Source: Prevotella sp.
GTDB lineage: Bacteria; Bacteroidota; Bacteroidia; Bacteroidales; Bacteroidaceae
Assembly: GCA_017475265.1 (NCBI GenBank)
Contig: JAFVFY010000071.1
Location: 38,036-102,035, forward strand
Direction: 5' to 3'
DNA: 64,000 bases
Within the stretch, counting starts at the first letter, position 1; every line of letters starts with the position of its first letter. The notes beneath the pieces were generated by a model. It worked only from the letters and a program-made list of their open reading frames with translations, was not told the origin of the DNA and did not search any database. The position numbers and the translations under genes are program-made. Of this stretch, positions 462-62,158 are shown in pieces.

Positions 462-1658
462 TTACTGTTTCGTTTTTAAAAACTCTGCGGCATATTCACC
501 CATGACGCGGTAGCCCTCGGCGTTCAGATGGAGCCAGTCCTCGCTAAGCTCTTTCTTAAGCTTTTCACGGTCGGAGGGGTCACGGGTCAGTTCGTCGAAG
601 TCAATCACGCCGTCAAACTCTCCGCTGGTGCGAATCCATTCGTTCACATCCTGGCGGGCAGCCTCGTGGTAGGGCGAGTACCACCCGTTGCCTTTGAAGG
701 CGGTGATGGTGGCTCCGTAGACCTTCTTGATGCCAGCCTCACGGGCTTTCTTAATGAGTGTCTTGTAGGCTTCTTTCAGCTCCTTGGCCGTATTCTCGGC
801 ATGAGGCGAAGTGCCGATGTCATTGGTTCCCTGGAAAATGATGAGGCGGTCAACGTTCTTCTGTCCGAGTATGTCACGGTCAAAGCGCTTCATAGCCGGC
901 TCGGAGAGTCCACCTCGCACTACGCAGTTGCCACCGATTCCGAGGTTTAGCACGCCGCAGTCCAGGTTGGCAGCCATCTGGTCGGGCCAGCGATTCTGCA
1001 GGTTTGTTGTGCTGCCACGCCCGTCGGTAATGCTGTTGCCCAGCACGGCAACGGCCTTCACCTGTCCGTCGGTGCGCACGTTCAGCTGCGCTATGCTGTA
1101 CCAGTGATCCAGCTTCTCTGCCGTCTCGAACTTCTTCTTCGCCGCAATCTGTCCTGTGGCAATGAAGCTTGTGGTGCGCGAGCCACGATGCGAAGTCATG
1201 TTCACTGGCACCTCCCCATAGCAGATGGTGACGGCCAAGCGCTGCCGAGGTTTCAACTTGTAGGCGAAATTGTCGCTCATGGCCGTCTCGCCCGGGGCGA
1301 TGGTCACGCTCTTCTGTCCACCGAACTTCAGTTCCTTAACCGTCTTGCGGTCGATGTCGCAAGAGTCCAACGCGTCGGCCACGTAGATGCTCTTGATTTC
1401 TACCGGCTCCTTGCTGAACTCATTGCTCAGCTGCAGCTGCAACTCCTCGCCGCCGATGCTCACCTGGATAATCTCGCGGAGTGTGTTGCCGGCGAGGCTC
1501 ATGCGCGGCATGTCGCCCCGTCCCGTCCACTCTGCCGCAGCAGCCCAGGTGCCAGTAAAATCATTGACCATTGAAGATTGACCATTGACCCCCTGTGCGC
1601 TCAGGCTCATAGTGGCTGCCATCATGACAGCACACAGAATAGTACATTTCTTCATCAT
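462..1658 (-). CDS. Secreted SGNH/GDSL-type esterase
   Basis: A 398-residue exported hydrolase, probably a carbohydrate (acetyl) esterase. It has a signal peptide (about residues 1-22) ending SLSAQG. The SGNH blocks are present: GNSITDG with Ser209, QGTND with Asn279, and DWLH with Asp374 and His377. The region between the signal peptide and block I (about 35-200) is a beta-rich accessory domain often seen in Bacteroidetes SGNH enzymes. Residues 24-33 (VNGQSSMVND) are encoded by a copy of the repeat that also occurs as a tandem array in the GH30 gene at 42886-43011. A TAnnTTTG-like -7 box is at 1686-1693 on the minus strand, without a convincing -33 box. The natural substrate is unknown. Confidence 0.85.
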   Translation of the reverse strand: MMKKCTILCAVMMAATMSLSAQGVNGQSSMVNDFTGTWAAAAEWTGRGDMPRMSLAGNTLREIIQVSIGGEELQLQLSNEFSKEPVEIKSIYVADALDSCDIDRKTVKELKFGGQKSVTIAPGETAMSDNFAYKLKPRQRLAVTICYGEVPVNMTSHRGSRTTSFIATGQIAAKKKFETAEKLDHWYSIAQLNVRTDGQVKAVAVLGNSITDGRGSTTNLQNRWPDQMAANLDCGVLNLGIGGNCVVRGGLSEPAMKRFDRDILGQKNVDRLIIFQGTNDIGTSPHAENTAKELKEAYKTLIKKAREAGIKKVYGATITAFKGNGWYSPYHEAARQDVNEWIRTSGEFDGVIDFDELTRDPSDREKLKKELSEDWLHLNAEGYRVMGEYAAEFLKTKQ

Positions 1659-1909
1659 ATTATTTAATCGTTACTCATTTTTCCGCAAAAATACTCAATT
1701 ATACATTAATATATTAACATTCTACGTTTCACAATCTTCTGTTGCAACAAAACAAGAAGGTTGTGAAACATGGGAAAAACAGGCAGGACTGTATACTCAC
1801 GTACTTGTATCCAGTAAGTTGACAGAGGTTGACATAGTTGAAGCTGAAAATAAGACAGAGAGAAAACGGTTTTCTCTCCTAGACAAAACGGTTTTCTCTC
1901 TTAGCCACT

Positions 1910-3529: not shown

Positions 3530-3555
3530 AGCGATACTTTTAGTCATTGGTGCTG

Positions 3556-3587
3556 CAAAAATACAAATAATCGGGCAAACAGCCAAA
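3556..3587 (-). promoter_or_regulatory. Promoter of the GH29 fucosidase gene
   Basis: On the minus strand, TTTG (3584-3587) is followed by 20 nt and TATTTTTG (3556-3563). This is an exact match to the Bacteroidetes sigma-ABfr consensus TTTG-N19-21-TAnnTTTG. Transcription would begin near 3549, about 20 nt before the chosen ATG. Confidence 0.75.
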
Positions 3588-3632
3588 CAGTTCGCACGAT
3601 TTTTCACTTTTGACTAGTAAGAACTCAGAGAA

Positions 3633-4166: not shown

Positions 4167-5345
4167 ATGACTACGGTAGCTAATCCCATCTACGACACTG
4201 TTTTCAAATACCTGCTTGAAGACGAGCGCATCACGCGCACCATCCTCTCCGCCCTGCTGAAAGAAGAGGTGATAGAAGTGGAAACCAAGCGCGACGAATA
4301 CTCCAACATCGGACGAGACAACCTGTCGGTGTTCCGCATCGACTTCGGTGCCAAAATCAAGAAAAGCAACGGAGACATACAGCTCATTCTGATAGAGCTG
4401 CAGAAGACGTGGCTGGAGACAGAGACATTGCGCTTCCGACAGTACCTAGGTGCACAGTATGCCAACAAGAACAACATGCGCGCAGAGCATCGTGGGGCAT
4501 ACGCCATACCCTTGGTAACGGTCTATTTGCTTGGACATAAAGTGGGCGACATCGAGGAGCCAGTGCTCTATGTCAGGCGAAAAGCTTTCGACTATAACGA
4601 CAGATTGGTGGAAAAGGGTATTCCCGACCCGTTCATTGATAGTCTGACTCACGACAGCATCATCGTGCAGATTCCACGTCTTCAAGGGCAGGTAAATAAT
4701 AAGCTTGACAAAGTGCTCAGTTTCTTCAACCAAACAGGAACCGACCAAAACAACAAGCAGATGCTTGACATTGATGAGACGGCATACGCAGGCGACAATG
4801 AGATGCTGCGCATCCTTCGCCGCCTGAAGTCTGCGGTTTCGGATGCCAAGATACGCCACGAAATGAACGTTGAGGACGAGTTCTTCTCTGTCATTGAGAG
4901 CAGGGACACAGACATCTTGATGAGAGACAAAACAATAGCTGAACAAAATGCTACAATATCTGAGCAAAGCACCAAAATATCTGAACAAAGTACCAAAATA
5001 TCCGAGCAAAGCACCAAAATATCCGAGCAAAGCACCAAAATATCCGAGCAAAGCACCAAAATATCCGAGCAAAGCACCAAAATATCTGAGCAAAGCACCA
5101 AAATATCTGAGCAAAGCACCAAAATATCTGAGCAAAGCACCAAAATATCTGAGCAAAGCACCAAAATATCTGAGCAAAGCACCAAAATATCTGAGCAAAA
5201 CACCATGATTGAGGAGCAAGCGTCCACCATAAGAACCTCGATTCAGATACTCCACAAGTCAGGAATGAGCGCAGAAACCATTGCGGAAAACCTTAACATG
5301 GATTTACTGCTTGTGAAACGATACATTGACAATAATATAAAATGA
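4167..5345 (+). CDS. Rpn/PDDEXK-type nuclease-transposase family protein
   Basis: A 392-residue protein beginning MTTVANPIYDTVFKYLLEDE, the typical start of the Bacteroidetes PD-(D/E)XK 'transposase' (Rpn-like) family. Related Rpn proteins promote recombination and are nucleases. Residues of the nuclease core are visible as GDIQLILIELQKTW (acidic residue, then E-x-Q). After the catalytic domain comes a coiled coil of 11 identical heptads STKISEQ, flanked by degenerate copies (TIAEQNATISEQ, NTMIEEQ). A helix-turn-helix-like end follows (SAETIAENLNMDLLLVKRYI). The stop overlaps the next ATG (ATGA), so the two genes are translationally coupled. The family is widespread and its cellular role is poorly known. 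Confidence 0.8.
   Translation: MTTVANPIYDTVFKYLLEDERITRTILSALLKEEVIEVETKRDEYSNIGRDNLSVFRIDFGAKIKKSNGDIQLILIELQKTWLETETLRFRQYLGAQYANKNNMRAEHRGAYAIPLVTVYLLGHKVGDIEEPVLYVRRKAFDYNDRLVEKGIPDPFIDSLTHDSIIVQIPRLQGQVNNKLDKVLSFFNQTGTDQNNKQMLDIDETAYAGDNEMLRILRRLKSAVSDAKIRHEMNVEDEFFSVIESRDTDILMRDKTIAEQNATISEQSTKISEQSTKISEQSTKISEQSTKISEQSTKISEQSTKISEQSTKISEQSTKISEQSTKISEQSTKISEQSTKISEQNTMIEEQASTIRTSIQILHKSGMSAETIAENLNMDLLLVKRYIDNNIK
4968..5198 (+). repeat. Tandem 21-bp array coding 11 STKISEQ heptads
   Basis: 231 bp made of eleven 21-bp units inside the Rpn-like gene. Units differ only by silent changes (tct or tcc for Ser, gaa or gag, agt or agc), and the types are grouped: about four consecutive tcc units, then a run of tct units. 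This indicates recent unit duplication by slippage or unequal exchange. The frame is kept because the unit is a multiple of three. Confidence 0.95.
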
Positions 5346-5793: not shown

Positions 5794-7620
5794 ATGAAGT
5801 CAACAGGAGTCAACGGGAGTTATCAGGAGGTAACAGACAGTACTGGTTGGCTGGAAAGGCTCGACAGCTGGCGCAAGGCTCACGTCGGCGAGCGCATGTT
5901 TGTGCTCATCTTGGCCTTCATCGTGGGTCTGCTTGCTGCTGTGGCAGCCTTTGTGCTCCACTGGATCATCAACCAGATAGGCCGTCTGCTCACTAGCCAG
6001 TTCGATGCCTCTTCGTCAAACTGGCTCTATCTTGTCTACCCCGTGGTGGGCATTTTTCTCACGTCGCTCTTTGTACGTCGCGTGGTGAAAGACAACATCA
6101 GCCACGGCATTACCCGCATTCTTTACGCCATCAGCCAGAACCGCTCACGGCTAAAGTCCCACAACACGTGGTCGAGCGTGGTAGCCTCGGCCATCACCAT
6201 TGGTTTCGGCGGTAGCGTGGGAGCCGAGGCTCCTATCGTGCTCACTGGCTCAGCCATCGGGTCGAATCTTGGAAAGCTCTTCCGCATGGACAGCCGCACG
6301 CTGATGCTGCTCATGGGCTGTGGTGCCGCAGGAGCCATTGCAGGTATCTTCAAGGCCCCCATTGCCGGACTGGTATTCACGCTCGAGGTGTTGATGATTG
6401 ACCTTACGATGGCATCGCTGATGCCTATCCTCGTGAGTTGCGTCACGGCCACCTGCTTTACCTATATATTTAGTGGTGACACCGCCCTCTTCACCTTCCA
6501 CTTGGACAACCATTGGACGGTGGAGCGCATACCGCCATGCATCCTGCTTGGCGTGTTCTGCGGACTGGTGAGCCTTTACTTCATCCGCGCCATGGGCTGG
6601 TGCGAGGACATCTTTGCCCGTTTCCGTGAAAAGCCTTACGTCAGGCTCGCCCTCGGCGGGTCGGCGCTGAGCCTACTCATCTACCTCTTCCCCTCGCTTT
6701 ACGGTGAGGGCTACGGAGCCATTAACCTACTGCTCAACGGCAACGGCGAGGCCGACTGGGAGCCGTTGCTCAACAACTCACTCTTCGCCGGCGACATGAG
6801 TATGCTCGTGCCTTACGTGGCCCTGGTGCTCGTCACGAAGGTGTTCGCCACGTCGGCCACCAACGGCGGCGGTGGCTGCGGTGGAACATTCGCCCCATCG
6901 CTCTTTATCGGCTGTTTCTCAGGTTTCTTCTTCTCCCACCTGTGGAATATCCACCAGATGGGCGTCTACGTTCCGGAAAAGAACTTTGCCCTCATGGGTA
7001 TGGCCGGCGTGATGTCAGGTGTGATGCACGCCCCGCTGACAGGTATCTTTCTCATCGCCGAACTGACAGGCGGCTACAGTCTCTTCCTGCCGCTGATGAT
7101 TGTCTCCACCGCCAGCTACCTCACTATCATCCTTTTCGAGCCCCACAGCATCTACAGCTCACGGCTGGCCAAGGAGGGCAAGCTTATTACCCACCACACC
7201 GACCACGCCGTACTCACGCTTATGCAGCTCGACTCGGTGATAGACCGCGACTATATGGCTGTGGCTCCCGACACCGACCTGGGACAGATTGTGCACCGCA
7301 TCAGCCGTTCGCACCACAGCGTCATCCCCGTGACCGATGCCGCAGGAGGTCTGTTGGGAGAGATAGACATCAAGAAGATACGTAATATCGTGTTCCGCAT
7401 AGAACTCTATCACCACTTCACCGCCACTCAACTCATGCAGGCACCTCCCGCTATGCTGGCCGACTCGCTGCCCATGGCCGAGGTGATGAAGACCTTCGAC
7501 GCCACACGCGCCGAATGGTTACCCGTACTCGACCGTGAGGGTCATCTGCGAGGCTACGTCTCCCGTGAAAGGCTGCTGACACAGTACCGCAAGATGGTAG
7601 CCGACATGAGCGAGGATTAA
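5794..7620 (+). CDS. ClC-type chloride channel/transporter with CBS pair
   Basis: A 608-residue inner-membrane ClC protein. Hydrophobic helices begin near residue 36. The selectivity motif GSVGAEAP (140-147) has Glu145 at the place of the gating glutamate, and a second conserved segment GGGGCGGTFAPSLFIG lies near 355-370. Two CBS domains occupy about 465-605 and probably sense adenine nucleotides. The first 15 residues are encoded by a degenerate decamer repeat (5798-5838, units like GTCAACAGGA) and look like a late addition to the N-terminus. A later in-frame Met precedes the first helix (about residue 35), so the real start could be downstream. Confidence 0.9.
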   Translation: MKSTGVNGSYQEVTDSTGWLERLDSWRKAHVGERMFVLILAFIVGLLAAVAAFVLHWIINQIGRLLTSQFDASSSNWLYLVYPVVGIFLTSLFVRRVVKDNISHGITRILYAISQNRSRLKSHNTWSSVVASAITIGFGGSVGAEAPIVLTGSAIGSNLGKLFRMDSRTLMLLMGCGAAGAIAGIFKAPIAGLVFTLEVLMIDLTMASLMPILVSCVTATCFTYIFSGDTALFTFHLDNHWTVERIPPCILLGVFCGLVSLYFIRAMGWCEDIFARFREKPYVRLALGGSALSLLIYLFPSLYGEGYGAINLLLNGNGEADWEPLLNNSLFAGDMSMLVPYVALVLVTKVFATSATNGGGGCGGTFAPSLFIGCFSGFFFSHLWNIHQMGVYVPEKNFALMGMAGVMSGVMHAPLTGIFLIAELTGGYSLFLPLMIVSTASYLTIILFEPHSIYSSRLAKEGKLITHHTDHAVLTLMQLDSVIDRDYMAVAPDTDLGQIVHRISRSHHSVIPVTDAAGGLLGEIDIKKIRNIVFRIELYHHFTATQLMQAPPAMLADSLPMAEVMKTFDATRAEWLPVLDREGHLRGYVSRERLLTQYRKMVADMSED

Positions 7621-7666: not shown

Positions 7667-7708
7667 CACCCTAAATTGTATAACAGTAAATCGTAAATAA
7701 TAACTGAG

Positions 7709-25956: not shown

Positions 25957-28932
25957 ATGAAGACAGAGCAACAAATATCGTTGGCGGCTGCTGAATTTGC
26001 AGAGCGTTGGAAAGACAGAGGATATGAGCGGGGCGAATCGCAACCGTTTTGGATTGACTTGCTTTCCAATGTCTTTGGAATTGAAAGGCCTTCGGATAGT
26101 TTCATAACTTTTGAGGAGCATAACAAGGTGGATGCCTCCAACTTCATTGATGCCCGCATCCGCTCCACAAAGGTCTTGATTGAGCAGAAATCACTGGGCG
26201 TTGACTTGCGGGCTGGCAGACGCCAGAGCGACGGTGCTGTGCTTAATCCATTCCAACAGGCCCGTCGTTATGTGGTCAGCCTGCCAGTGTCAGAGCATCC
26301 CCGCTGGATAGTCACTTGCAACTTCTCGGAATTTCTTGTCTATGATATGGAGCAGCCAAACGGTGAGCCTGAGCAGATTCTTTTGGAGAACTTGGGGAAA
26401 GAGTATTACCGCTTGATGTTCCTCGTCGATGCAAAAAGCGAGCATCTGAGCAAGGAAATGCGGGTGTCGATGCAGGCTGGTGAGATTGTCGGCAAGATAT
26501 ACGATGCTTTGCTGAAGCAATACGAAGAACCACTGGGAGCGCGGGCGTCCTCGCCCGCCAAAAGTGCGGACGAGGACGTCCGCGCTCCCATGCTGCGTTG
26601 GCTCAACATCCTTTGCGTCCGCATCGTGTTCTGCCTTTATGCCGAGGATGCTGAGGTATTCAGTCACGACCAGTTCCATGATTACCTTGCCAGGTTTGAT
26701 GCCGAAGGTATGCGTGTGGCACTCTTGCAACTTTTCGACACCCTCAACAAGCCTATAGATAAACGTAGCCGATTCTTGCGTGACGACCTGAAAGCATTTC
26801 CTTACACCAACGGAGGATTGTTTGAAGAAGAGATAGAAATACCACAGTTCACAGAGGAACTCCGTACTACGTTGCTGCAAAACGCCAGCCTCGACTTCGA
26901 CTGGAGCGAGATTTCGCCCACCATCTTCGGATCCGTGTTCGAGAGCACGCTGAATCCTGAGACCCGTCGCAGCGGTGGGATGCATTATACCAGTATTGAG
27001 AACATTCACAAGGTGATAGACTCGCTTTTCCTGAACGACCTCCGCCGCGAGCTTGACGAGATACTGGAAGAGAAGATAGAGAAACAGCGTAAGCGGAAAC
27101 TGGGCGATTACCAGATGAAGCTCTCGTCGCTGACATTCCTCGACCCGGCTTGCGGATCAGGAAACTTCCTTACTGAGACCTTCCTTTCGCTGCGCCGCTT
27201 AGAGAACGAGGCTATCCGAGAGATGTATCATGGCCAGACGATGCTTGGGGCATTCGTGAATCCCATCAAGGTCAGCATTCAGCAGTTCTACGGCATCGAG
27301 ATTAACGATTTTGCCGTAACGGTTGCCACGACAGCACTATGGATTTCCGAGGCCCAGATGTTGAGAGAGACGGAGAAGATTATCAAGCAAGACATCGATT
27401 ACCTGCCGCTGAAGCCTTACAAAAACATTCGTGAGGGGAATGCGCTGAGGATGGACTGGGACGTGATGGAGTATCCCACAGACGTTACTACTATTTATGC
27501 TAAGAACGCACATATCATTCATGAAGACGAAAGTCAATGGAAGGCAAGCGAACCTGTTGTGGAATATGACGATATCAATCTTGTTACTGCTCACTATGAC
27601 AGCGAACCTAAGCCAACAACCACAAGGGTAGAAGTCCGTTTTGACTATATCATTGGCAATCCGCCGTTTGTGGGATATACATTCCAGTCTGAACGTCAAA
27701 AGGAAGATCTTTCGATCGTTTGTCGTGAATGTGGAAAGAATATCGACTATGTTGCAGGATGGTACTACAAAGCTGCCATGCTGATGCAACACTCAAATGT
27801 GAAGGCTGCACTAGTGTCAACCAATAGCATTTGCCAAGGCGAACAGGTTTCGGCTATCTGGAAATTGCTTATGGAACAATATGGGCTGCGCATAGACTTT
27901 GCTTATCGTACCTTCCAATGGGATAGTGAGGCTACGCTCAAAGCCCACGTTCATTGCGTGATAGTTGGGTTCAGCAGCTTATATAGCCCTGAACCGATGG
28001 AAAAGCTAATCTTCAACGACAATTGCATCATCAAGGCAGACAACATCAATCCCTATTTGCTGGATGCGCCAACCGTCTTTGTTGACAAACGCAAAAAACC
28101 GCTCTGTGTGGGTGTGCCACAGATGATGAAAGGAAGCCAGCCTACTGATGGCGGCAACCTCCTTCTGTCATCAGAGGAGCGGGAGGAATTGCTCAAGAAG
28201 AGTCCAACGTTGTCACGCTATGTGCGTCCGTTTGTTGGTGCCGACGAGTTTATCAAGGGCAAAGAACGTTATTGCCTATGGCTTGACGGAGCCAATCCCG
28301 ATGACTTGATGCATAGTGCAGAACTGGCACGGCGTATTGCTGCCGTCCGTGAGTGCCGCAATGCGAGCCCCAAAGCCGCTACGCGCCAATGGGCAAAATT
28401 CCCGACACTGTTCACGGAGAACCGCCAGCCAAGTGACACCTATATTATTGTGCCTAGTGTTTCATCAGAGAAGCGTCGCTATGTGCCTATGGGATTTGTT
28501 TCTCCCCAGGTGGTGGCCAGCAATCTGGTGCTTATTATCCCCAACGCCTCCTTATACCATTTCGGTGTGCTCACTTCCAATATTCACATGGCTTGGATGC
28601 GGGCTATTTGCGGACGCCTTGAAGTGGATTATCGTTATAGTGCTCAGATTGTATACAACAATTTCCCATGGCCAGAACCTACAGATGCCCAGAAAGCAAA
28701 GATAGAACAGACGGCACAGGCCATCCTTGATGTTCGTGCCAAGTATGCTAACAGCACTTTGGCTGCCCTCTATAGCGAGAATTTCATGCCCGCTGACCTT
28801 CTTCACGCCCATGAGGAGAATGACCGTGCCGTAATGGCTGCATACGGATGGAAGACCAACAGCATCTATCAGGAGAGCATGGATGTAGCCAAGCTTTTCA
28901 GATTATACCAAGAAATGACGAATAAAGTCTAA
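25957..28932 (+). CDS. Type IIL (MmeI-like) restriction-modification enzyme
   Basis: 991 residues combining nuclease, methyltransferase and target recognition in one chain. The N-terminal nuclease site is Asp65, then E76-Q77-K78 in LIEQKSLG (MmeI has D-X9-E-x-K). A helical spacer follows (about 180-370). The adenine methyltransferase core has motif I DPACGSGNF near 400 and motif IV NPPFVGY near 570. The target recognition and C-terminal helical region run to the end (AAYGWKTNSIYQESMDVAKL). All catalytic motifs look intact. Residues about 193-211 come from a palindromic insertion (26534-26590). A relic of a second C-terminus lies at 29139. The recognition sequence cannot be predicted by eye. 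Confidence 0.85.
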   Translation: MKTEQQISLAAAEFAERWKDRGYERGESQPFWIDLLSNVFGIERPSDSFITFEEHNKVDASNFIDARIRSTKVLIEQKSLGVDLRAGRRQSDGAVLNPFQQARRYVVSLPVSEHPRWIVTCNFSEFLVYDMEQPNGEPEQILLENLGKEYYRLMFLVDAKSEHLSKEMRVSMQAGEIVGKIYDALLKQYEEPLGARASSPAKSADEDVRAPMLRWLNILCVRIVFCLYAEDAEVFSHDQFHDYLARFDAEGMRVALLQLFDTLNKPIDKRSRFLRDDLKAFPYTNGGLFEEEIEIPQFTEELRTTLLQNASLDFDWSEISPTIFGSVFESTLNPETRRSGGMHYTSIENIHKVIDSLFLNDLRRELDEILEEKIEKQRKRKLGDYQMKLSSLTFLDPACGSGNFLTETFLSLRRLENEAIREMYHGQTMLGAFVNPIKVSIQQFYGIEINDFAVTVATTALWISEAQMLRETEKIIKQDIDYLPLKPYKNIREGNALRMDWDVMEYPTDVTTIYAKNAHIIHEDESQWKASEPVVEYDDINLVTAHYDSEPKPTTTRVEVRFDYIIGNPPFVGYTFQSERQKEDLSIVCRECGKNIDYVAGWYYKAAMLMQHSNVKAALVSTNSICQGEQVSAIWKLLMEQYGLRIDFAYRTFQWDSEATLKAHVHCVIVGFSSLYSPEPMEKLIFNDNCIIKADNINPYLLDAPTVFVDKRKKPLCVGVPQMMKGSQPTDGGNLLLSSEEREELLKKSPTLSRYVRPFVGADEFIKGKERYCLWLDGANPDDLMHSAELARRIAAVRECRNASPKAATRQWAKFPTLFTENRQPSDTYIIVPSVSSEKRRYVPMGFVSPQVVASNLVLIIPNASLYHFGVLTSNIHMAWMRAICGRLEVDYRYSAQIVYNNFPWPEPTDAQKAKIEQTAQAILDVRAKYANSTLAALYSENFMPADLLHAHEENDRAVMAAYGWKTNSIYQESMDVAKLFRLYQEMTNKV
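26534..26590. repeat. 57-bp palindromic REP-like insert, in frame
   Basis: Two 25-bp arms (26534-26558 and 26566-26590) match at 23 of 25 positions as inverted repeats with a 7-nt loop. They are GC-rich, unlike the flanks. The insert adds 19 residues (G-A-R-A-S-S-P-A-K-S type) to a spacer region of the restriction enzyme without breaking the frame. Confidence 0.9.
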
Positions 28933-33514: not shown

Positions 33515-33561
33515 GATGGAAAAAATTGAAAGATGAAAGAATGAAATGTTGTTGTCGTGTG

Positions 33562-33593
33562 CAAAGGTAAGCAAATTATTTGAATTGTGCAAA
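33562..33593 (-). promoter_or_regulatory. Promoter of the DUF6078 gene
   Basis: On the minus strand, TTTG (33590-33593), 20 nt, TACCTTTG (33562-33569). The -33 box touches the left arm of the 47-bp inverted repeat. Confidence 0.75.
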
Positions 33594-34030: not shown

Positions 34031-34062
34031 GTTGCATGTCTCAGAAGAATGTAGTACCTTTG
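34031..34062 (+). promoter_or_regulatory. Promoter of the VirE-type gene
   Basis: GTTG (34031-34034, one mismatch to TTTG), 20 nt, TACCTTTG (34055-34062), 31 bp before the ATG. The -33 box directly follows the right 47-bp arm, mirroring the DUF6078 promoter. Confidence 0.65.
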
Positions 34063-34092
34063 CAACCTGTAATAACAAAAAACTTCTGAATT

Positions 34093-36469: not shown

Positions 36470-36513
36470 CACCCCAAATCGTAAATAGTAAATAGTCAAA
36501 TCGTCAAATAGCT

Positions 36514-37749
36514 ATGCTCCTGAATACCATTCCCGAGGCCATCGATGACATCCGCGATGGCAAGTTCGTAATAGTGGTCGACGACGAAGACCGCGAGAAC
36601 GAGGGCGACCTCATCTGTGCCGCCGAGAAAATCACCGCAGAAATGGTGAACTTCATGCTCAAGCACGCCCGGGGCCTCCTTTGCGCGCCCATCACCATCA
36701 GCCGCAGCGAGGAGCTGCAGCTGCCACGCCAGGTGCAGGACAACACATCGCTGCTCGGCACACCCTTCACCGTCACCGTCGACAAGCTGGAAGGATGCTC
36801 CACGGGTGTCTCCGCCCACGACCGTGCCGCCACCATTCGCGCACTGGCCGACCCCACTTCGACCCCTGAGACCTTCGGGCGTCCAGGTCACGTGAACCCC
36901 CTCTATGCACAGGACAACGGCGTGCTGCGCCGTTCGGGACACACCGAGGCCGCCATAGACCTCTGCAAGATGGCAGGATTATATCCCGCCGGCGCACTCA
37001 TGGAAATCATGAACGATGACGGCACTATGGCACGCATGCCACAGCTCATGGAGTTTGCCCGCAAATGGGACTTGAAGCTCATCACCATCAAGGATATGAT
37101 AGCCTACCGGCTGCAGACCGAAATGCTCGTGGAGCAGGGTCAGGAAGTTGACATGCCCACGGAATGGGGGCACTTCCGCCTCATACCCTTCCGTCAGAAG
37201 AGCAACGGGCTGGAGCACTTCGCCCTCATCAAAAATAGCCAGATAGTAAATAGTCAAATAGTAAATGGTCCCCTGGACTGGGGACCCGACCCCGTTCTTG
37301 TTCGTGTCCACTCCAGTTGTGCCACCGGCGACATCCTCGGCTCGAAGCGTTGCGACTGCGGCGAGCAGCTGCACAAGGCCATGCAGATGATTGAGGCCGA
37401 AGGACGTGGTGCTCTCGTCTACATGATGCAGGAAGGCCGCGGCATCGGCCTGATGAATAAAATTGCTGCCTACAAGCTGCAGGAGGAGGGCTATGACACC
37501 GTAGACGCTAACACCCATCTGGGCTTCAAGCCTGACGAGCGCGACTACGGCTGTGGCGCCCAAATACTCCGTCTGCTCGGCATACAGAAGATGCGCCTCA
37601 TGACCAACAACCCCGTGAAGCGCGTCGGGCTCGAAGCCTACGGACTGGAAATCGTTGAGAATGTGCCCATAGAGGTCACTCCCAACGAATACAACCTCCG
37701 CTACCTCCGGACCAAGCAGAACCGCATGGGGCATACCCTGCACCTCTAA
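36514..37749 (+). CDS. ribBA: Bifunctional DHBP synthase / GTP cyclohydrolase II
   Basis: 411 residues catalysing the two entry steps of riboflavin synthesis in the cytoplasm. The N-terminal RibB part has [16 protein letters not shown], the [10 protein letters not shown] segment and [14 protein letters not shown]. The C-terminal RibA part has [20 protein letters not shown], with the zinc-binding cysteines, and [20 protein letters not shown] with the catalytic region. Between them, residues about 240-253 ([14 protein letters not shown]) are encoded by a repeat tract (37231-37270) matching the leader, an unusual insertion in a core enzyme. It is transcribed towards dnaA. Confidence 0.95.
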
Positions 37750-39703: not shown

Positions 39704-42700
39704 ATGATGATGAGAAAGACAATGATGACATTATTGGCCGTTCAGGCTGCTGTTTTGGCGGCATGGGCAGGGCAGACGTTCACTATTATGGTGGACCAGC
39801 CTCGGCAGACGATAATGCATTTCGGGGCGAGTGATGCTTGGTCGATGCAGGACATCGGGACTTGGGCGGACACGACGGAGCAGAAGAAGATTGCGGATTG
39901 GCTGTTCTCCATGGAGACGGACGAGAACGGACAGCCACGGGGAATAGGGCTTTCGTTGTGGCGGTTTAATCTGGGAGCGGGCAGTGCGGAGCAGGGAGAT
40001 GGTGCGGCCATTAACCGTGACACACGCACAGAGTGCTTCCTCCAGGCCGACGGCAGCTATGACTGGAGCCGACAGGAGGGACAGCGGCGGTTCCTGCGTA
40101 TGGCCAAGGAGAGGGGTGTTCCTTATTTCCTGGCTTTCCTTAATTCGCCGCCTGTGTATTTCACACAGAACGGACTGGCCACGAACACTGGGCGGGGCGG
40201 AACGCTGAACCTGCGCGAGGACTGCTTTGATGACTTCGCACAGTATATGGCCACGTCGATGCGGGGACTGGAGGAGCACGACGGCATACACTTCGACTAC
40301 ATCAGTCCGGTGAATGAGCCTGATGGTCACTGGAACTGGCAAGGGCCAAAGCAGGAGGGGTCTCCGGCTACTAACCGCGAGATAGCAAGGCTGGCCAAGG
40401 CCACCAGTGAGGAGTTCCGGCGGCAGGGCGTGAGCACACAGATTATGGTCAATGAGTCGAGCGACCTGCGCTGCCTTCTGGGCATCTACAAGACAACGTG
40501 GGAACGGGGCAACACGCTTCGAACGTTCTTTTCCAAGGACAGTACGAAGACTTATTTGGGCGACACACCACAGGTGCCACGCCTCATCCTGGGTCACAGC
40601 TATTGGACGAACACGCCCGTGAGACGTATGAAATCCATCCGAGAGCGACTGCGCAAGGAGTGTCGTGACCTCGGCGTGAAGTTCTGGCAATCGGAGATTT
40701 GCATCATGAGCAACGACGAAGAGATAGGAGGCGGCGGGGGCTATGACTTCACCATGAAGACGGCGCTCTACGTGGCGCGCATCATCCATCACGACCTGAC
40801 CTACGCCGATGCCGAGAGCTGGTCGTGGTGGCGGGCCTGCGGCGGCAACTACAAGGACGGACTCATCCGCGTGTGGAACCGTGGGCACCGTGCCCAGGAC
40901 TCGCGGTTGCTATGGGCGATGGGCAACTACAGCCGATTCGTTCGTCCCGGAGCCGTGCGCTATGACATCAGCGGCAACGAAGACCCGCGCGGGCTGATGC
41001 TTACCGCCTTCCGCAACAAGGACGCGCTGTGGGTGGTGGTGGCCATCAACTACAGCGACAAGGAGCAACCGCTTGACATTGCCTTCTCAGACGGCAGCGA
41101 GACACAGTGGAAGGCCTATCGTACCAGCGACGTGGAGGGTGAGACGCTCAAACCAGTAGGCCACGCTTCCCAGCGTGGCAGTTCAGGCCAAGGTGGAGCC
41201 TGTAACACCCTTCCGCCGCGTAGCATAACCACATTCGTAGAGGTAAACACTGAACTGCCACGCAAGGAAGCGTGGCCTACTACTGTGGCTGCGGAGGGTG
41301 CTTGGTGCTGGTTTGCCGACCCTCGGGCGCTGCACTATAAGGACGAGAAAGGGACGGTGGACGCCACCTACATAGGCTATATTGATGTTCATGGAAATGT
41401 GAAGGCTACACAGTATGACTGGCTGCGGCAGAAGAAGACCGACGTGCTGGTGCGCTCGTTCTTCCAGCCCGACGACCATAACAACCCGACGTTTCTCGTC
41501 TTGCCTGACGGTCGTGTGATGATATTCTACACGCGCCACACCGATGAGCCTTGCATCTGGTACCGCATTTCGGAAAAGCCTGGCGACATCACCGCCCTGG
41601 GCGAGGAGAAGCGCTTGGCCACGAAGAACAACACGACCTACCCCTCGCCCTTCATCCTCAGCGACGACCCGCAGCACATCTACCTCTGCTGGCGCGGCAT
41701 CGGCTGGCATCCCACCATCGCACGCCTGACCATGCCCGATGCCGACGGCAACTGCTCGTTCGACTACGGCCCCTACCAGGTGGTGCAATCTACCGGCGCG
41801 CGTCCCTATGCCAAGTATGCGAGCAACGGCAAGGACAAGATTTACGTGGCCTACACCACGGGGCATCCCGACAACGAGCAGCCCAACTGGCTCTACTTCA
41901 ACGTCATCGACATCAACCACGGGCAAGGCCCGCTGCTGCGCGACATCCTCGGGCAGCAGCTGAGCGTCGTCAGCGAGGGGACGTTCCATGTGGACAAGAG
42001 CGAGAAGTATGCCGCTGAGTACCCTGCCACCATTATTGACCGCACGGCGCAGACACGCAACTGGGTGTGGCAAATAGCTTTGGACAATAAACGTGAACCA
42101 ATAACCAATAACCGTGAAACAATAACCAATAACCGTGAAACAATAACCAATAACCGTGAAACAATAACCAATAACCTTGAACCAATAACCAATAAACGTG
42201 ATTCTGAGCGGCCGGTGGTGGCCTACACGCACATCGACGAGGCCAAGACGTCGCACGAGTACTGGTATGCCCGCTGGAACGGACAGCAGTGGCAGACCAC
42301 TGTCATCGCTCCTGCTGGTCATGCCTTCCACCAGAACTGGGACAAGACGGAGCGCTGCTACAGTGGCGGCATGGCCATCGACCCTGATGACACTAAACAG
42401 CTCTACCTCTCCATGCCCGTAGTAGCCCACGCTTCCCAGCGTGGGAGCAGCCTCACCATAGCAGACAACCCTTCAGTTGCGCACTTCGACCGTGACGGTG
42501 TTTATGAGATATGGCACTACACACTGGCCGATGATGGCAGCGTCAGTAATAAGGAACAAGTGACGCGAGGCTCCGCGAAGGGCAACGCACGGCCTTACGT
42601 CATCCCCGGCTCAGCAAACTCAAAGATGCGGCTGACGTGGATGCAAGGCGACTACTATTATTGGATGGTGAACAAGTGGTACCCGAAAGGTTACCCCACG

Positions 42701-43237
42701 GCCATTGTATGTGATGCCCCGATACTTGCAGAATTTGACAAGCAAACTTCACTACAGTCTATAGATATTCCGTTGGGGGATGTCCGTGAGCCTCTTGTGC
42801 TTACCCCAGGAAAGCCCGTAAGGCTGACGCTGCATCCTGACACCGCCAACTATGCCGGAGTGCTCTTCACCGCCACACTGGCCGATGGTCAACATTCAAT
42901 GGTCAATGGTCAACATTCAATGGTCAATGGTCAACGTTCAATGGTCAATGGTCAACGTTCAATGGTCAATGGTCAACGTTCAATGGTCAATGGTCAACGT
43001 TCAATGGTCTACAGCATCTCCCCTGATGACCAACGGCCAGTGGTTACCATCGGCGACCGCACCTTCTATAGCCAGAACCGTCTACTCAATAGTGATGCCT
43101 GGGCGCAGCACAGCACAGGCACCAATGGTGACACCCACCCCACGAAGCTGACCGCCGTCGACCTCACCCTCTGCTACGATGGGCATACGCTCACCATTCT
43201 CCGCGACGGCCACGTAGACCAAGTAGTGGAGTTCTGA
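39704..43237 (+). CDS. Secreted GH30-type glycanase fused to a BNR propeller
   Basis: 1177 residues with a signal peptide (about 1-22, ending AAWAG). The N-terminal half is a GH30-like barrel: Glu205 in SPVNEPDGHW fits the acid/base and Glu331 in WQSEICIM fits the nucleophile. Relatives include endo-beta-1,6-galactanases. The C-terminal half (about 530-1177) is a BNR_4-like propeller (AWCWFADPRALHY, NPTFLVLPDGRVMIFYTRHT), a fold used by some lyases and rhamnosidases. The gene holds four kinds of in-frame repeat insertion, all in the linker or propeller and none in the GH30 core. Probably an arabinogalactan- or similar glycan-degrading enzyme; the substrate is inferred. Confidence 0.8.
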   Translation: MMMRKTMMTLLAVQAAVLAAWAGQTFTIMVDQPRQTIMHFGASDAWSMQDIGTWADTTEQKKIADWLFSMETDENGQPRGIGLSLWRFNLGAGSAEQGDGAAINRDTRTECFLQADGSYDWSRQEGQRRFLRMAKERGVPYFLAFLNSPPVYFTQNGLATNTGRGGTLNLREDCFDDFAQYMATSMRGLEEHDGIHFDYISPVNEPDGHWNWQGPKQEGSPATNREIARLAKATSEEFRRQGVSTQIMVNESSDLRCLLGIYKTTWERGNTLRTFFSKDSTKTYLGDTPQVPRLILGHSYWTNTPVRRMKSIRERLRKECRDLGVKFWQSEICIMSNDEEIGGGGGYDFTMKTALYVARIIHHDLTYADAESWSWWRACGGNYKDGLIRVWNRGHRAQDSRLLWAMGNYSRFVRPGAVRYDISGNEDPRGLMLTAFRNKDALWVVVAINYSDKEQPLDIAFSDGSETQWKAYRTSDVEGETLKPVGHASQRGSSGQGGACNTLPPRSITTFVEVNTELPRKEAWPTTVAAEGAWCWFADPRALHYKDEKGTVDATYIGYIDVHGNVKATQYDWLRQKKTDVLVRSFFQPDDHNNPTFLVLPDGRVMIFYTRHTDEPCIWYRISEKPGDITALGEEKRLATKNNTTYPSPFILSDDPQHIYLCWRGIGWHPTIARLTMPDADGNCSFDYGPYQVVQSTGARPYAKYASNGKDKIYVAYTTGHPDNEQPNWLYFNVIDINHGQGPLLRDILGQQLSVVSEGTFHVDKSEKYAAEYPATIIDRTAQTRNWVWQIALDNKREPITNNRETITNNRETITNNRETITNNLEPITNKRDSERPVVAYTHIDEAKTSHEYWYARWNGQQWQTTVIAPAGHAFHQNWDKTERCYSGGMAIDPDDTKQLYLSMPVVAHASQRGSSLTIADNPSVAHFDRDGVYEIWHYTLADDGSVSNKEQVTRGSAKGNARPYVIPGSANSKMRLTWMQGDYYYWMVNKWYPKGYPTAIVCDAPILAEFDKQTSLQSIDIPLGDVREPLVLTPGKPVRLTLHPDTANYAGVLFTATLADGQHSMVNGQHSMVNGQRSMVNGQRSMVNGQRSMVNGQRSMVYSISPDDQRPVVTIGDRTFYSQNRLLNSDAWAQHSTGTNGDTHPTKLTAVDLTLCYDGHTLTILRDGHVDQVVEF
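41155..41281. repeat. Inverted pair of a 32-bp palindromic element, both in frame
   Basis: Copy A (41155-41186) and copy B (41250-41281, opposite orientation) match at 30 of 32 positions. Each has its own dyad (CCACGC...GCGTGG). One orientation codes VGHASQRGSSG, the other ELPRKEAWPTT; neither breaks the frame. They flank the junction of the GH30 and BNR parts. Confidence 0.9.
42091..42200 (+). repeat. 21-bp tandem array coding NNRETIT heptads
   Basis: About five units of the type ccgtgaaacaataaccaata, with variants at both ends, inside the BNR part of the GH30 gene. Seven-codon periodicity keeps the frame. Confidence 0.9.
42421..42450 (+). repeat. Third copy of the CCACGC-GCGTGG palindromic element
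   Basis: Same core as the copies at 41155 and 41250 (cccacgcttcccagcgtggg), again in frame, coding VAHASQRGSS. Confidence 0.85.
42886..43011 (+). repeat. 21-bp tandem array coding GQ(H/R)SMVN heptads
   Basis: Six units of the type ggtcaacgttcaatggtcaa. The first two have cat (His), the last four cgt (Arg), showing stepwise duplication. A single related copy is in the SGNH esterase gene (1561-1592, minus strand) in the same reading frame. Confidence 0.95.
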
Positions 43238-58621: not shown

Positions 58622-58664
58622 TGTTTATTTCGTTTGTATTATTTATGGTTGTTGCGTTTCGCTG

Positions 58665-58844: not shown

Positions 58845-60056
58845 CTATTCTTCTCTTGCGGCCCGTGCCCGTGCCGCCATCTCTTCGATGATGGTAGCGA
58901 TGTCGGCCACATCGACCACGCCGTCGCCGTTCACGTCGGCGTAGTTGGCAACGCCTCCGAGCGTTGCATCCCCCGCCATGACGCTGATGACGGTGGCGAT
59001 GTCGGCCACGTCGATGGTAAAGTCGCCGTTCACGTCGCCAGCCTTGTTGGCCTTGATGGTGATGGTGGGGTATGATGTCCAGGACTGCTGTGTAGTGGTT
59101 CCCTGTGTCTGGGCACGGCTGCCGGCGGTCTCTTCCTCTAAGCCCACGACGTTCAGACGTGCGGTATAGACACCAGCGGCCATATCTTCCACCACGTAGA
59201 GCGTGATGTTCATTATGTGACCTGCATTAACGGGGAACTTGCTCTCGTCGAGTGGTATGGCCGTGAAGCGCCAGGTGTTCATGTTCGATATTTCACCCAT
59301 TGACTCTTGCCAAGGCTGCACCATGAGCAGCATCGTGCCGTTGGCGTACTTGCCCACGAGCTTCGCGTCTATCTGGCCGTAGTCGTGCTCGGCCACGACG
59401 ATGCCACTAGGCAGCGTGAGGTCGAAATAGAACGATGCCACCTCATTCCTGTTGTTGAGGAAGATGGGCATGGTGATGCGTTTTGCTGGACTTCCCTCCA
59501 CGTCATCGGCGGTGACCACGGCGGGTTCAGCCTCCTCCATGTCCTTCTCCACGGTGACGTTAGCTACGGTCGAGGTCATGGCCACGGACTTGCTGTCGCG
59601 TGTGGAACAGACCACATGCTCCACACGCACGGTGTATTTCCCAGCGGATAAGGCTGAGTCGGCGGTCAGCTCGATGTCCATGAGCGGGCCCGACGTCAGG
59701 GCATCAATGCCAGTGTCCATCGAGTAGGCCAGGCAGAGGAAGCTGCCGTCGGTGGCCGGGCGGATGCTGCCGTTCCTGGTGCGGTCGCTCCGCTCCTGGA
59801 ACAGGTATTTGCCCTTTTCGTCGGTGGCAATGCTGATGCCCTCGGGCAGGTAGAGGCTGAACTGGTACATGGTGTAGTCGGTGCCCTCGGTGGTGAGGTT
59901 CACGGTCATCGTAGCCTGACCACCGGCCTTCAGCGTCACGTCGGCTACCGTAATGGTGTCTTTCGAGTCCCAGATGGTGTCACGGGGTTCTTCCGTAGCT
60001 GCGTCGGCCATCATGGGAAGAATGGCTGTGAGTAAAATAAATAATGTCTTTCTCAT
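58845..60056 (-). CDS. Secreted protein with two cohesin-like and a dockerin module
   Basis: 403 residues; signal peptide ending MMADA. Two cohesin-like beta-sandwich domains (about 35-170 and 175-320) are marked by YQFSLYLPEGISIATD and SFYFDLTLPSGIVVAE. The C-terminal dockerin type I module (about 340-390) has two calcium loops, GDVNGDFTIDVADIATVIS and ADVNGDGVVDVADIATII. Having both partner types on one chain allows self-assembly. It is 29 bp downstream of a paralogue on the same strand. Confidence 0.8.
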   Translation of the reverse strand: MRKTLFILLTAILPMMADAATEEPRDTIWDSKDTITVADVTLKAGGQATMTVNLTTEGTDYTMYQFSLYLPEGISIATDEKGKYLFQERSDRTRNGSIRPATDGSFLCLAYSMDTGIDALTSGPLMDIELTADSALSAGKYTVRVEHVVCSTRDSKSVAMTSTVANVTVEKDMEEAEPAVVTADDVEGSPAKRITMPIFLNNRNEVASFYFDLTLPSGIVVAEHDYGQIDAKLVGKYANGTMLLMVQPWQESMGEISNMNTWRFTAIPLDESKFPVNAGHIMNITLYVVEDMAAGVYTARLNVVGLEEETAGSRAQTQGTTTQQSWTSYPTITIKANKAGDVNGDFTIDVADIATVISVMAGDATLGGVANYADVNGDGVVDVADIATIIEEMAARARAAREE

Positions 60057-60085
60057 AATTGTAATGGTTTGTTGTTTGTTTTTAT

Positions 60086-62158
60086 TTATCTGAAACCAAT
60101 TTGAATAATATCCCTCTGTCTTCTTGCGTTGGCGGCCATAGTGTCGATGATGGCGGCTATGTCGGCCACATCGACCGTGCCGTCGCCGTTCACGTCGGCT
60201 GATGCGGACGAGACGTCTGCGCTCCCAGCCATAACATCGATGACGGTGGCGATGTCGGCAACATCGATGGTGTTATCGCCATTCACGTCACCCTGCTTCT
60301 GGGTCTTGATGGTAATGGTTGAGTAGGATGTCCATGCAGCGGAAGAGGCTGGGGCATGCATCACACCGAACAACGAATTTGACGAATTAAACGAATTGTC
60401 CGTGGACAACGGATTAAACGGATTGTCCATGAAGGTGCGGCTGCCTGCAGCAGCATCATTGGCCTCCACGAACTTCACAACGTTCATGCGAGCGGTATAG
60501 ACACCGCCGGCCATGTCCTTGTCGACCTCAAGCGTGACATTCATCACGCGCCCGGCATTGGCATGGAACACACCATTGTCTTTCGGCGTGGCGATGAAGC
60601 GCCAGGTGTTCACGTTGTTGGTCGTTCCCATCGAGGCATCCCAGGGCAGGCAGCTGAGCAGCATCGTGTCGCCGTAGTCGCCCGTGAACGTGGCGATGAA
60701 CTGCCCGTTCTTCTCTGTAGCCACGGTAACACCCTTCGGCAGCGTCAGGTCGAAGTAGAAGGCGTTGATGTCTTTCGCGTTGTTCAGGAACACGGGCAGC
60801 GTGATGCGGCTGGCGGGCTCGCCCTCAACGTCATCGGCGGTAATTACTCCCTGAGTATCTGTCCCGGCCTTCTCTACGGTAATGGTAGCAGTTGACGACG
60901 GCAGGCCTACCGATTCATTATCGCGGGTGGCACAGGTTATGCGCTCTATACGCACGGTGTATTTCCCGGCGGCGAGGGCCGAGTCGGCAGTAAGCTTTAT
61001 TTCCATGAGCGGGCCGCTGGCGAGGGCGGCATGGTTCTTATCGGCCATCGTGTAGAACAGCACGCTGCCGTCCTCCACGGGAAGGACAACTTTCTTCCTG
61101 CCGGTCTTTTCCGTCACGAGATAATTGCCGTTCTCGTCGGTGGACACGCTGATGCCCTCGGGCAGGTAGAGGTTGAACTGGTAGCCCTTGTAGTTAGTGC
61201 CACCAGTGGTGTTGAGGCTCACGGTGAGCGTGGCGTTCTCCCCAGCCTTCAGGGTCACGCTGCTGACCGTGACCCTGTCGGTTGCGTCCTCGTCCACTTC
61301 GCCCATCTCATGGATGCTGCGAAACTTATCCCACTGCGGTTCGTCAAGGTAGAACTCTATACGGTTCTTTGGCACATAGAGGTCGTAATACTCCATGCCG
61401 AAAATGGAGTTTTCGTCCAACGTGCATGGGCGTTTCATGTTTGCGATGAAATTGCACGTCGCACTCTCGTTTTTGATGTTTCCGTAGCGGAAGGCGTAGG
61501 TGCCAGTAATGCGCTTCAACGTTGACGGTAGCACGACCATCGTCAACGGACAGCCGTTGAAGGAGTAGGCCATTATCTCTTCCACGCCTTCGGGAATGTT
61601 AACGGCTCGCAGATTAGTGGCTAAACGAAAGGCACCCTCGCCGATGTAGCTAATACCAGCGGGAATACTAACGCTGGTGATGCCAATGCACTCGCGGAAC
61701 GAGTTGCTTCCGATGCCCACCACACGGTAGCCATCAATCTCGGCCGGGATAATGAGGTCGCCCTTGGTTTCCGAATTGATGCACGGAACGAAGTCCTCAG
61801 CGGAATTGTAATCCCCAGCGTAGGTCTCTACGGCCTTCTCTTCGTCATCCACCACGCGGAACTGCATCTTGATTCCCTGTTGAGTCACTGATTTGAAGAT
61901 GTACTGCAACTCATCAATAACCTTGAAGCCTTTCCAAATATCTGCTGCCTTGTAGGCGGCAATCTTTCCTGGTGGTACGTATAAGGAAATGTTTTTGACA
62001 TTAGAAAAGGTGTTTTGTTCTATATGAGGTGGAATCATTGGTAAAGCAATTACTGTTTCTAAGCTCTCGCAACCAGAAAAAGCATATTCTCCTATGCTTG
62101 TTACCCCGCTGCCAATCGTAACGGAGGTCAGACCGCTGCAATTGCAGAAAGCTGATTT
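60086..62158 (-). CDS. LRR, cohesin-like and dockerin protein, 5' end cut by an IS
   Basis: The frame is open from about 62158 with no start codon, so the N-terminus is lost at the IS edge. The first residues are LRR_5 repeats (FCNCSGLTSVTIGSGVTSIG); LRRs continue to about position 61300. Two cohesin-like domains (YQFNLYLPEGISVSTDENG, FYFDLTLPKGVTVATE) and a dockerin pair (GDVNGDNTIDVADIATVID, ADVNGDGTVDVADIAAII) follow, ending in a basic tail. The first internal Met is at 62038. Compared with the paralogue at 58845, an extra stretch near 60361-60432 is a repeat insertion. Confidence 0.75.
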   Translation of the reverse strand, partial: KSAFCNCSGLTSVTIGSGVTSIGEYAFSGCESLETVIALPMIPPHIEQNTFSNVKNISLYVPPGKIAAYKAADIWKGFKVIDELQYIFKSVTQQGIKMQFRVVDDEEKAVETYAGDYNSAEDFVPCINSETKGDLIIPAEIDGYRVVGIGSNSFRECIGITSVSIPAGISYIGEGAFRLATNLRAVNIPEGVEEIMAYSFNGCPLTMVVLPSTLKRITGTYAFRYGNIKNESATCNFIANMKRPCTLDENSIFGMEYYDLYVPKNRIEFYLDEPQWDKFRSIHEMGEVDEDATDRVTVSSVTLKAGENATLTVSLNTTGGTNYKGYQFNLYLPEGISVSTDENGNYLVTEKTGRKKVVLPVEDGSVLFYTMADKNHAALASGPLMEIKLTADSALAAGKYTVRIERITCATRDNESVGLPSSTATITVEKAGTDTQGVITADDVEGEPASRITLPVFLNNAKDINAFYFDLTLPKGVTVATEKNGQFIATFTGDYGDTMLLSCLPWDASMGTTNNVNTWRFIATPKDNGVFHANAGRVMNVTLEVDKDMAGGVYTARMNVVKFVEANDAAAGSRTFMDNPFNPLSTDNSFNSSNSLFGVMHAPASSAAWTSYSTITIKTQKQGDVNGDNTIDVADIATVIDVMAGSADVSSASADVNGDGTVDVADIAAIIDTMAANARRQRDIIQIGFR
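60361..60432 (-). repeat. In-frame gaattaaacgaattgtcc-type repeat insertion
   Basis: A run of related units (aatccgtttaatccgttgtcc / aattcgtttaattcgtcaaa on the minus strand) coding MDNPFNPLSTDNSFNSSNSL. The paralogous gene at 58845 lacks it at the corresponding place, which shows insertion rather than ancestral sequence. Confidence 0.8.

Follow-up and report, generated by a model that had tools for sequence, protein, structure and literature searches.

Cyanobacterial STRR and LTRR sequences are tandem heptanucleotide repeats that occur in high copy. Dispersed tandem heptamers, TAACTGA and others, are found in Beggiatoaceae, Cyanobacteria and some Bacteroidetes, sporadically between genomes; according to passages of the report describing them (PMC4679880), those of Beggiatoaceae lie mainly upstream of start codons, and the few inside open reading frames (ORFs) take a stop-free orientation. 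Excerpts of another report (PMC4692102) describe G-rich heptameric G-quadruplex repeats of Xanthomonas and Nostoc that are enriched in single genomes. Repetitive extragenic palindromes (REPs) are mostly intergenic, as stated in sections of PMC3733652 and PMC8266576. In-frame intragenic REPs tagged with GTAG are known, most of them from Opitutus terrae, and linkers or loops have already been suggested as the places where intragenic REPs fall (same sections of PMC3733652). Rickettsia palindromic elements (RPEs), ~150 bp palindromes of ten families, lie in frame in unrelated genes (PMC10969869 and PMC3733652, in part), and RPE-4 and RPE-6 have been classed as CGTC REPs (a passage of PMC3733652). 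In-frame intragenic REPs and RPEs are, in short, already published. Here we analyse a 64,000-nucleotide stretch (the window) of a Prevotella draft genome of 4.75 Mb in 135 contigs, in which hairpins and tandem arrays of short units interrupt unrelated genes without breaking their reading frames.

The original prediction for this stretch named eight genes with in-frame repeats. Six of them, for an esterase, RibBA, an MmeI-like enzyme, a VapE/VirE-type protein, a GH30 protein and a dockerin-bearing protein, read in alignment as in-frame insertions missing from related genes, and in five of these six the repeats belong to families dispersed through the genome, the VirE copies matching loosely. 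The 13-mers of the esterase, ribBA, MmeI, GH30 and dockerin inserts were each found at at least five other places in an 800-kb sample outside the window. Counts of relatives were taken from alignments, and where relatives are called listed only those listed were inspected. The clearest comparison is that of ribBA, in which a heptamer array of the AAATAGT/AAATCGT family (37231-37270, plus strand) adds ~13 residues to the GTP cyclohydrolase II half, while 108 of 109 other loci, some of them possibly one genome counted twice, are 11-15 residues shorter and lack the segment; a sharing of the insert by distant orthologues, which was looked for in these 109 loci, was not found. The nearest named relatives of this gene are Prevotella from rumen and deer gut, and the closest of all (L051, uncultured Prevotella from red deer, 88% identity, the runner-up having 84%) carries at the same position an unrelated insert of similar length.

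The other five genes gave comparable results. In the GDSL esterase a heptamer array of the AATGGTC family (1562-1590, minus strand) codes for GVNGQSSMVN directly after the signal peptide; the 14 listed of 28 relatives have 0-12 residues in this place, none with the heptamer peptide, and the esterase of L336 has 2 (SAQ-ND-YTGTW) for the 11 of the window. The insert of the MmeI-like enzyme arises from a 57-base double hairpin, two inverted copies of the GC-rich element PAL2 (26534-26590, no strand assigned), which supplies 16 extra residues: 26 residues stand there in the window versus 10-11 (DDNSPEALRW and similar) in the 14 listed of 21 relatives with at least 50% identity. In the VapE/VirE-type gene a C/G-rich palindromic element coding for PPLTPPLRGAG (34521-34555, plus strand) is followed by a 9-mer array of ACACAGATA/ACACGGATA (34556-34648, plus strand), which matches a dispersed 9-mer family loosely, with up to 5 mismatches. 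Nine of the 13 alignable listed relatives (of 19) have 6-13 residues in place of at least 48, and four have 19-37. The dockerin-bearing gene holds a 9-mer type repeat of ACGAATTAA/ACGGATTAA (60361-60432, minus strand) whose 23 residues are absent from the tandem paralogue at 58845-60056. Finally, the GH30 gene, credited in the original prediction with four repeat places, holds five. They are a CAATAAC heptamer array with every third unit altered at the would-be stop (42085-42201, plus strand, insert of ~38 residues), a CAATGGT array with a 21-bp super-period (42885-43009, plus strand, ~36 residues, GQHSMVN...), and three copies of the hairpin PAL1: an exact one coding for VVAHASQRGS (42419-42448, plus strand), one with degenerate outer bases CCAG in the GH30 part, coding for PVGHASQRGS (41153-41182, plus strand), and an inverted one at the joint between the GH30 and BNR parts (41254-41283, minus strand). 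None of the 12 relatives of the BNR half has the CAATAAC array (2-4 residues stand there for 41-42) or the CAATGGT array (3-15 residues for 43-50), and the PAL1 copy at 42419-42448 is likewise missing from all of them.

The two remaining genes of the eight did not stand as insertions. At 5798-5838 the ClC gene has a weak 10-mer array (Tandem Repeats Finder score 43) with no dispersed 13-mer, and the length of this N-terminus varies in the 14 listed of 29 relatives. In the Rpn gene the 21-bp, 7-residue ISEQSTK repeat (4932-5205), whose sole NCBIfam match is SMC, likewise has no dispersed 13-mer. The 21-base repeats of an AlbA-type gene (32621-32728) were also left out, no tie to a dispersed family having been found.

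We counted repeats in 864 kb of the genome including the window, about 18% of the total. The first sample comprised 464 kb, and the second was drawn from contigs listed in other searches; genes are our own hexamer-based calls, not standard annotation (620 in the 864 kb). Comparing each base with the base p positions on, we found 103 period-7 arrays in the first 464 kb; periods 5, 13, 16 and 17 gave 2-5 there, and period 8 gave 11. The whole sample had 187, or 216 per Mb, where periods 5, 13 and 17 reached 5-7 per Mb and periods 8, 10, 11, 16, 19 and 20 reached 10-35. Multiples of 7 were in excess, and so, more weakly, were periods 9 (91 per Mb), 11 and 22 (76 per Mb). Wholly genic arrays numbered 96, with 43 intergenic and 48 straddling a gene boundary, and 74 of the 620 called genes carry one, so that the units are not limited to a single gene family. 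Per kb, the density is 0.13 in genes versus 0.86 outside. With up to 3 mismatches the pattern TCAATGGTCAATGGTCAA was matched at 640 places across the genome, a count in which a long array enters more than once, versus 1 for its reversed control; a similar pattern, run against 246 further genomes of the class, of which few belong to this genus, gave at most 6 matches per genome. The unit AATTCTC, in turn, was present in 243 of 299 genomes of the genus, with 0 to 606 matches per genome, figures to be read as counts and not as an excess, the reversed control being itself a repeat family in other genomes. The heptamer class is therefore genus-wide, with favoured units that differ between genomes.

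Could these arrays have arisen where they stand, each by slippage from a chance seed of 7-14 bases, with no movement between loci? Heptanucleotides are reported as the most abundant long simple-repeat class in most genomes studied, and slippage has been proposed for them (PMC4679880); the 21-base super-periods of coding arrays also point to local amplification. Nevertheless, a few units recur at many loci (AACTCTC in 19 and AATGGTC in 17 of the 187 arrays), AATTCTC goes from no match to 606 between genomes of one genus, the array-free orthologous sites have, by eye, no evident seed, and hairpin families could not be produced in this way. Slippage accounts for the growth of heptamers, not for their spread, and as the sole process we judge it unlikely. 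Arrays less than 100 bases apart share their unit in 63% of 35 pairs, versus 17.5% for arrays on different stretches, and the same-unit pairs are inverted in 15 cases and direct in 7. Some arrays adjoin the common palindromic cores PAL4 and PAL5; the proposal that every array is the arm of a hairpin element was rejected as a general rule, their flanks having no excess of perfect hairpins.

The way in which arrays fit into genes is informative. As 7 is not a multiple of 3, the three frames of a strand all translate an array into the same cyclic 7-residue peptide, so that stops close every frame or none. The sense unit is stop-free in 76 of the 96 genic arrays; where a unit is open on exactly one strand, 69 lie in the sense orientation versus 18 that are closed (binomial 3e-8). 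Closed units, containing CAT TGA or CAA TAA, have every third unit altered, with the altered pattern recurring each 21 bases: CGT GAA replaces CAA TAA in the GH30 gene (42085-42201), and CAT TCA replaces CAT TGA at another locus (L004, 4310-4362). At would-be stop codons 35 of 99 bases deviate from the unit, compared with 55 of 708 elsewhere, a count conditioned on the array lying in a gene. Given the 21-base period of the altered pattern, the stop must, judging from these sequences, have been altered before the final rounds of growth, which would then have gone by in-frame multiples.

Ribosomes bypass hairpins in the mitochondrial byps. The hairpins of 20-57 bases within conserved enzymes could be skipped likewise, their peptides never being made. 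Bypassing would require neither an open frame nor altered stops, and the inserts that we examined are in frame and stop-free, with the would-be stops of heptamers changed; we hold this explanation to be very improbable.

Hairpin families are about as common in the sample as single heptamer families, according to a k-mer count. The best defined is PAL1 (GTAGTAG-CCCACGCT-TCCC-AGCGTGGG), in which GTAG stands directly 5' of a 20-base hairpin. Like GTAG REPs it thus has its tag beside a hairpin of 20-40 bp and is multicopy, with 52 genome-wide matches at up to 3 mismatches, and like the REP dimers called BIME or REPIN it forms inverted pairs: we counted nine with starts 36-57 bases apart (such as 2074+/2120- in L019), and the window copies 41153+/41254- make a wider one. 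The sample held 35 copies at up to 6 mismatches, with 0 for the reversed control, and PAL1 departs from GTAG REPs in that 33 of these 35 are wholly in genes rather than mainly extragenic. The frame reading VVAHASQRGS is used by 18 of the 33 genic copies, where one in five open frames would be expected (p 1e-5, copies within one gene not being independent). The hosts include an alpha-L-rhamnosidase, a GH127 protein, CobJ-CbiC, a CbiG fusion, CbiD-CbiJ, CobQ, CobB and an MMPL protein. Separately, one part of contig C103 of this genome (L018-L019, at roughly 73-87 kb) holds 16 of 42 PAL1 copies, most of them in genes for cobalamin biosynthesis, a cluster that suggests local spread.

The outer arms of PAL1 are fully complementary in 39 of 42 copies, in seven types, while 2,000 shuffles gave a mean of 11 and a highest value of 20; the 42 copies were picked by the inner motif, and 6 of them come from stretches chosen for holding PAL1. 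In a 44-row alignment 99.0% of cells were paired versus 85.6% on shuffling, a value reached by 0 of 500 shuffles, the covariation score was 0.327 versus 0.086, again with 0 of 500 shuffles as high, and three outer base pairs vary together. Among 200 genomes of the genus, the CCC/GGG version had 52 matches in this one and 5 in its closest relative (G088), with one match each, at 3 mismatches, in 11 others. A motif independent of the arms lay at 47 places in 984 kb of loci from this genome (overlaps counted twice), at 4 places in 292 kb of G088 and at none in 2.0 Mb of loci from other genomes. Because PAL1 is nearly confined to this genome and G088 and its arms keep pairing through compensatory changes, it is probably of recent origin and has remained a hairpin.

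The location of the copies depends on the family. PAL1, PAL6, PAL2, PAL4, PAL5 and the C/G-rich element together have 72 of 82 copies in genes, compared with 6 of 80 for a 9-mer family, a 22-base family and PAL3 (Fisher 2e-27), a grouping made post hoc that omits an 11-mer family (10 of 31 genic) and a second 9-mer pattern (1 of 3). As we read them, few frames of the 22-base and 9-mer units contain a stop, so that openness alone does not decide where a family resides. With 49 of 53 copies genic against a coding share of 88% (p 0.40), PAL1 and PAL6 are not depleted in genes, and a preference for genes is not shown. Since heptamer arrays are denser outside genes and these two families lie at the coding share, nothing shows genes to be a preferred target. 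The variety of heptamer, 9-mer, 11-mer, 22-base and several hairpin families in the sample agrees with the many distinct families that the original prediction had read from the window.

In the cases examined, repeats sit in loops or in a linker, as the original prediction had it, or after a signal peptide. CobJ-CbiC is an example. Its alignment with the solved CobJ structure 3nut runs to residue 106 and resumes at 136, around the PAL1 block, and that with 2zvb runs through the block with gaps. In an AlphaFold model built from 30 aligned sequences (mean predicted local distance difference test score, pLDDT, 74.6; predicted template modelling score 0.46) the sole internal stretches with pLDDT <50, at residues 101-134, 273-296 and 405-413, are the three repeat sites. 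In the RibBA model the insert (~239-253) lengthens a beta hairpin and has pLDDT <50 at 246-248; residues 74-83, which hold no repeat, also fall below 50. The PAL1 block at the first CobJ-CbiC site is present in 0 of 29 relatives. Eight of the 29 have inserts at that site, four of them recognisable as repeats, including one AAGCAAG heptamer array within a 57-residue segment. The CbiC loop has inserts in six of the 29, and in five of these a repeat can be recognised, each time another one: heptamers of AACTCTC, octamers of CTCAATCT, heptamers of CACCTCT, a C/G hairpin and, in G088, a hairpin of PAL2 type with a variant of PAL1 behind it. The linker has inserts in three of the 29, none recognisable, and the VirE site has longer segments in 7 of 18 relatives, two with heptamer arrays. 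From these alignments the same tolerant loop seems to have been filled independently by different families.

Loop reuse bears on the possibility that the repeats are functional peptide or RNA modules, kept for the regulation of expression or for folding. The shared frame of PAL1, the maintenance of its hairpin, and a heptamer array (AAATAGT/AAATCGT, 36474-36511, plus strand) between the promoter-like box TACTTTTGC and the ribBA start codon would fit such a role. It is hard to reconcile, however, with hosts that are unrelated, with most relatives doing without the insert, with a single loop whose inserts differ by species and with inserts that are modelled at low confidence, as if disordered, and we find it distinctly unlikely. 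As a separate observation, a TTTGC promoter-like box and a start codon enclose the array at 36474-36511 and some of the straddling arrays, a placement that recalls the heptamers upstream of start codons in Beggiatoaceae, and AAATCGT-type heptamers also lie upstream of the gene at 7709 (7686-7699, plus strand).

RAYT (TnpA_REP), the REP-associated tyrosine transposase, is an HUH single-strand transposase. The genome encodes one (L002, 6231-6791) that scores above the cut-off of NCBIfam model NF047646 (97.7 vs 80 bits), and it is flanked at 6164-6186 and 7333-7351 by GTTC-tagged hairpins centred on ATTTGCAAT, an arrangement that matches the one given for mobile REPs and their RAYT in sections of PMC3733652 and PMC8266576. 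Hairpins with this centre (PAL6 type) lie in genes in 9 of 14 cases. Movement of the hairpins by HUH transposases is plausible, and the hairpin families are a possible tie between the in-frame palindromes and the resident RAYT, the link to the genic hairpins being a loose one through the common centre. Across the genus, Y1_Tnp genes were found in 14 of 22 heptamer-rich versus 5 of 22 heptamer-free genomes (p 0.014), with both groups hand-picked from the AATTCTC survey and a family model that covers RAYT and IS200 types together; the association is weak, and we did not retain RAYT presence as the explanation of the heptamer load. One of the three Y1_Tnp loci of the genome is interrupted by a contig end. 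Contig C29 (L296, 1-420) begins within a RAYT-like Y1_Tnp ORF, behind which stands a long hairpin, CTAGGGTCGTGGGGACAGG...CCTGTCCCCACGACCCTAG, that may represent another REP family.

An assembly artefact would be a trivial explanation, since the assembly is a draft in 135 contigs and most of the nearest named relatives come from metagenome assemblies. A 200-kb sample of a single-contig genome (G133) had 6 period-7 arrays, none genic, against 8 at period 8, as an artefact might predict. The same amount of a three-contig genome (G010), on the other hand, had 8 period-7 arrays versus 2-5 at periods 5, 8, 10, 13, 16 and 17, two of the 8 in genes, with one stretch chosen on a known match of the AATTCTC survey. 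A sample of G040 was excluded, as it contained 4% N and gene calls with a model trained on the genome of the window covered only 30% of it. We consider an artefact barely credible.

The dispersal of the repeats, their in-frame position, their absence from orthologues, the reuse of loops across species and the conservation of the PAL1 hairpin were observed directly. The account that we regard as likely is that selfish short repeats insert widely and that selection keeps the in-frame, stop-free copies in tolerant loops. The repeats would come in two builds and many families: REP-type hairpins, in which a short tag (GTAG in PAL1) precedes a ~20-base palindrome, often in inverted pairs, and tandem arrays of 7-base, more rarely 9- or 11-base, units. 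Both would land at many sites, with gene-breaking copies lost and survivors found in surface loops, in linkers and behind signal peptides, where they would be translated as flexible peptides, most of them probably tolerated rather than useful. Arrays bearing a stop would survive with the stop changed and then lengthen by 21 bases. RAYT may move the hairpin families, and the heptamer arrays would grow by slippage and reach new sites by some other route. We infer that seeding may be ongoing, as the original prediction suggested, from the 52 PAL1 matches here versus 5 in G088 and single ones in 11 other genomes, from the absence of the arm-independent motif in the 2.0 Mb of other loci and from the loop reuse between species.

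Several observations weigh against selfish insertion followed by selection in genes. Neither a target-site duplication nor an exact empty site could be established. The counts of orientation and stop editing involve some circularity, a gene call itself requiring an open frame, and low pLDDT is expected for residues that have no aligned homologue, making the models support rather than proof. For PAL1, two of five covariation measures did not exceed shuffles (395 of 500 shuffles did as well for pair changes on both sides and 112 of 500 for further pair types), and only 3 of 8 pairs vary. Perfect hairpins flank 0 of the 96 genic heptamer arrays, versus 7 of 288 random places. By our count the GTTC tag is present in 7 of the 14 ATTTGCAAT-centred hairpins, in 5 of 5 outside genes and 2 of 9 genic ones, and the hairpins flanking the RAYT gene have different stems, which the PAL6 consensus fails to match with 3 mismatches allowed. 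No PAL1 or PAL2 copy was found near any of the three Y1_Tnp loci, one of them cut by a contig end, and a family-model search found no Y1_Tnp in 8 heptamer-rich genomes.

A wider form of selfish insertion can be put forward tentatively, and we doubt it more than we believe it. Heptamer arrays would themselves be mobile coding elements, each species recopying its own set of heptamers and hairpins into the same permissive loops, perhaps as single-strand DNA through RAYT-like HUH enzymes at replication forks, and selfish DNA would be a main source of new loop sequence in the genus and occasionally of gene fusions.

Compared with the described systems, the repeats of the window resemble RPEs in their in-frame insertion into unrelated genes and their absence from orthologues. 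They differ from them in host (Prevotella), in size (hairpins of ~20-57 bases versus ~100-150 bp) and in the accompanying tandem heptamers; the original prediction likened the repeats to RPEs, but the part made up of REP-type palindromes is closer to intragenic REPs. With respect to the heptamers of Beggiatoaceae, where one unit was studied, many units occur in one genome here, about half of the arrays are genic, comparison with orthologues reveals insertion in conserved enzymes, and the 32 consensus units found in the first 464 kb do not include TAACTGA. Among the matches listed in open-licence full text, none dealt with heptamers or REPs inside genes of Prevotella, subscription journals being outside that scope. 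As far as this literature goes, the mixture of many families, the heptamer insertions in conserved enzymes as judged against orthologues, a GTAG family that is nearly always genic in the sample and the refilling of one loop are apparently new.

Some neighbouring features deserve mention. In the relatives listed, the GH30 and BNR parts (39704-43237) match two distinct genes, and a genome that has both carries them on different contigs. Matches to GH30 stop near residue 520 and those to BNR start near 526; in the window the two form one frame with the inverted PAL1 at the joint, where two inspected BNR relatives have a signal-peptide-like start, and a repeat-associated gene fusion at 41254-41283 is suggested. 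Palindromic tandem units of 22 bases lie at 1859-1904 and 33781-33844, and all 18 sampled copies of another 22-base family (TTGTACTACAAAAGATATGGTC) were intergenic. Two 101-base inverted repeats (33547-33647 and 33977-34077), 79% complementary and 329 bases apart, lie upstream of the VirE-type gene, and a tandem repeat of 23-24 bases (CCAAATGATACCGATGTTGTCACT, 63872-63980) lies directly downstream of a transposase-like ORF (62249-63805).

In this genome proteins seem to be undergoing large-scale remodelling by selfish DNA, which adds short and probably floppy peptides to enzyme loops. If the scale of 74 array-bearing genes in 620 holds, working enzymes would gain new loop peptides rapidly and to a major extent through short selfish repeats. 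These are common rumen bacteria with hundreds of sequenced relatives, and since the genus spans genomes with zero and with hundreds of matches to one unit, the movement of RPE-like and heptamer repeats can be tested in it by comparison.

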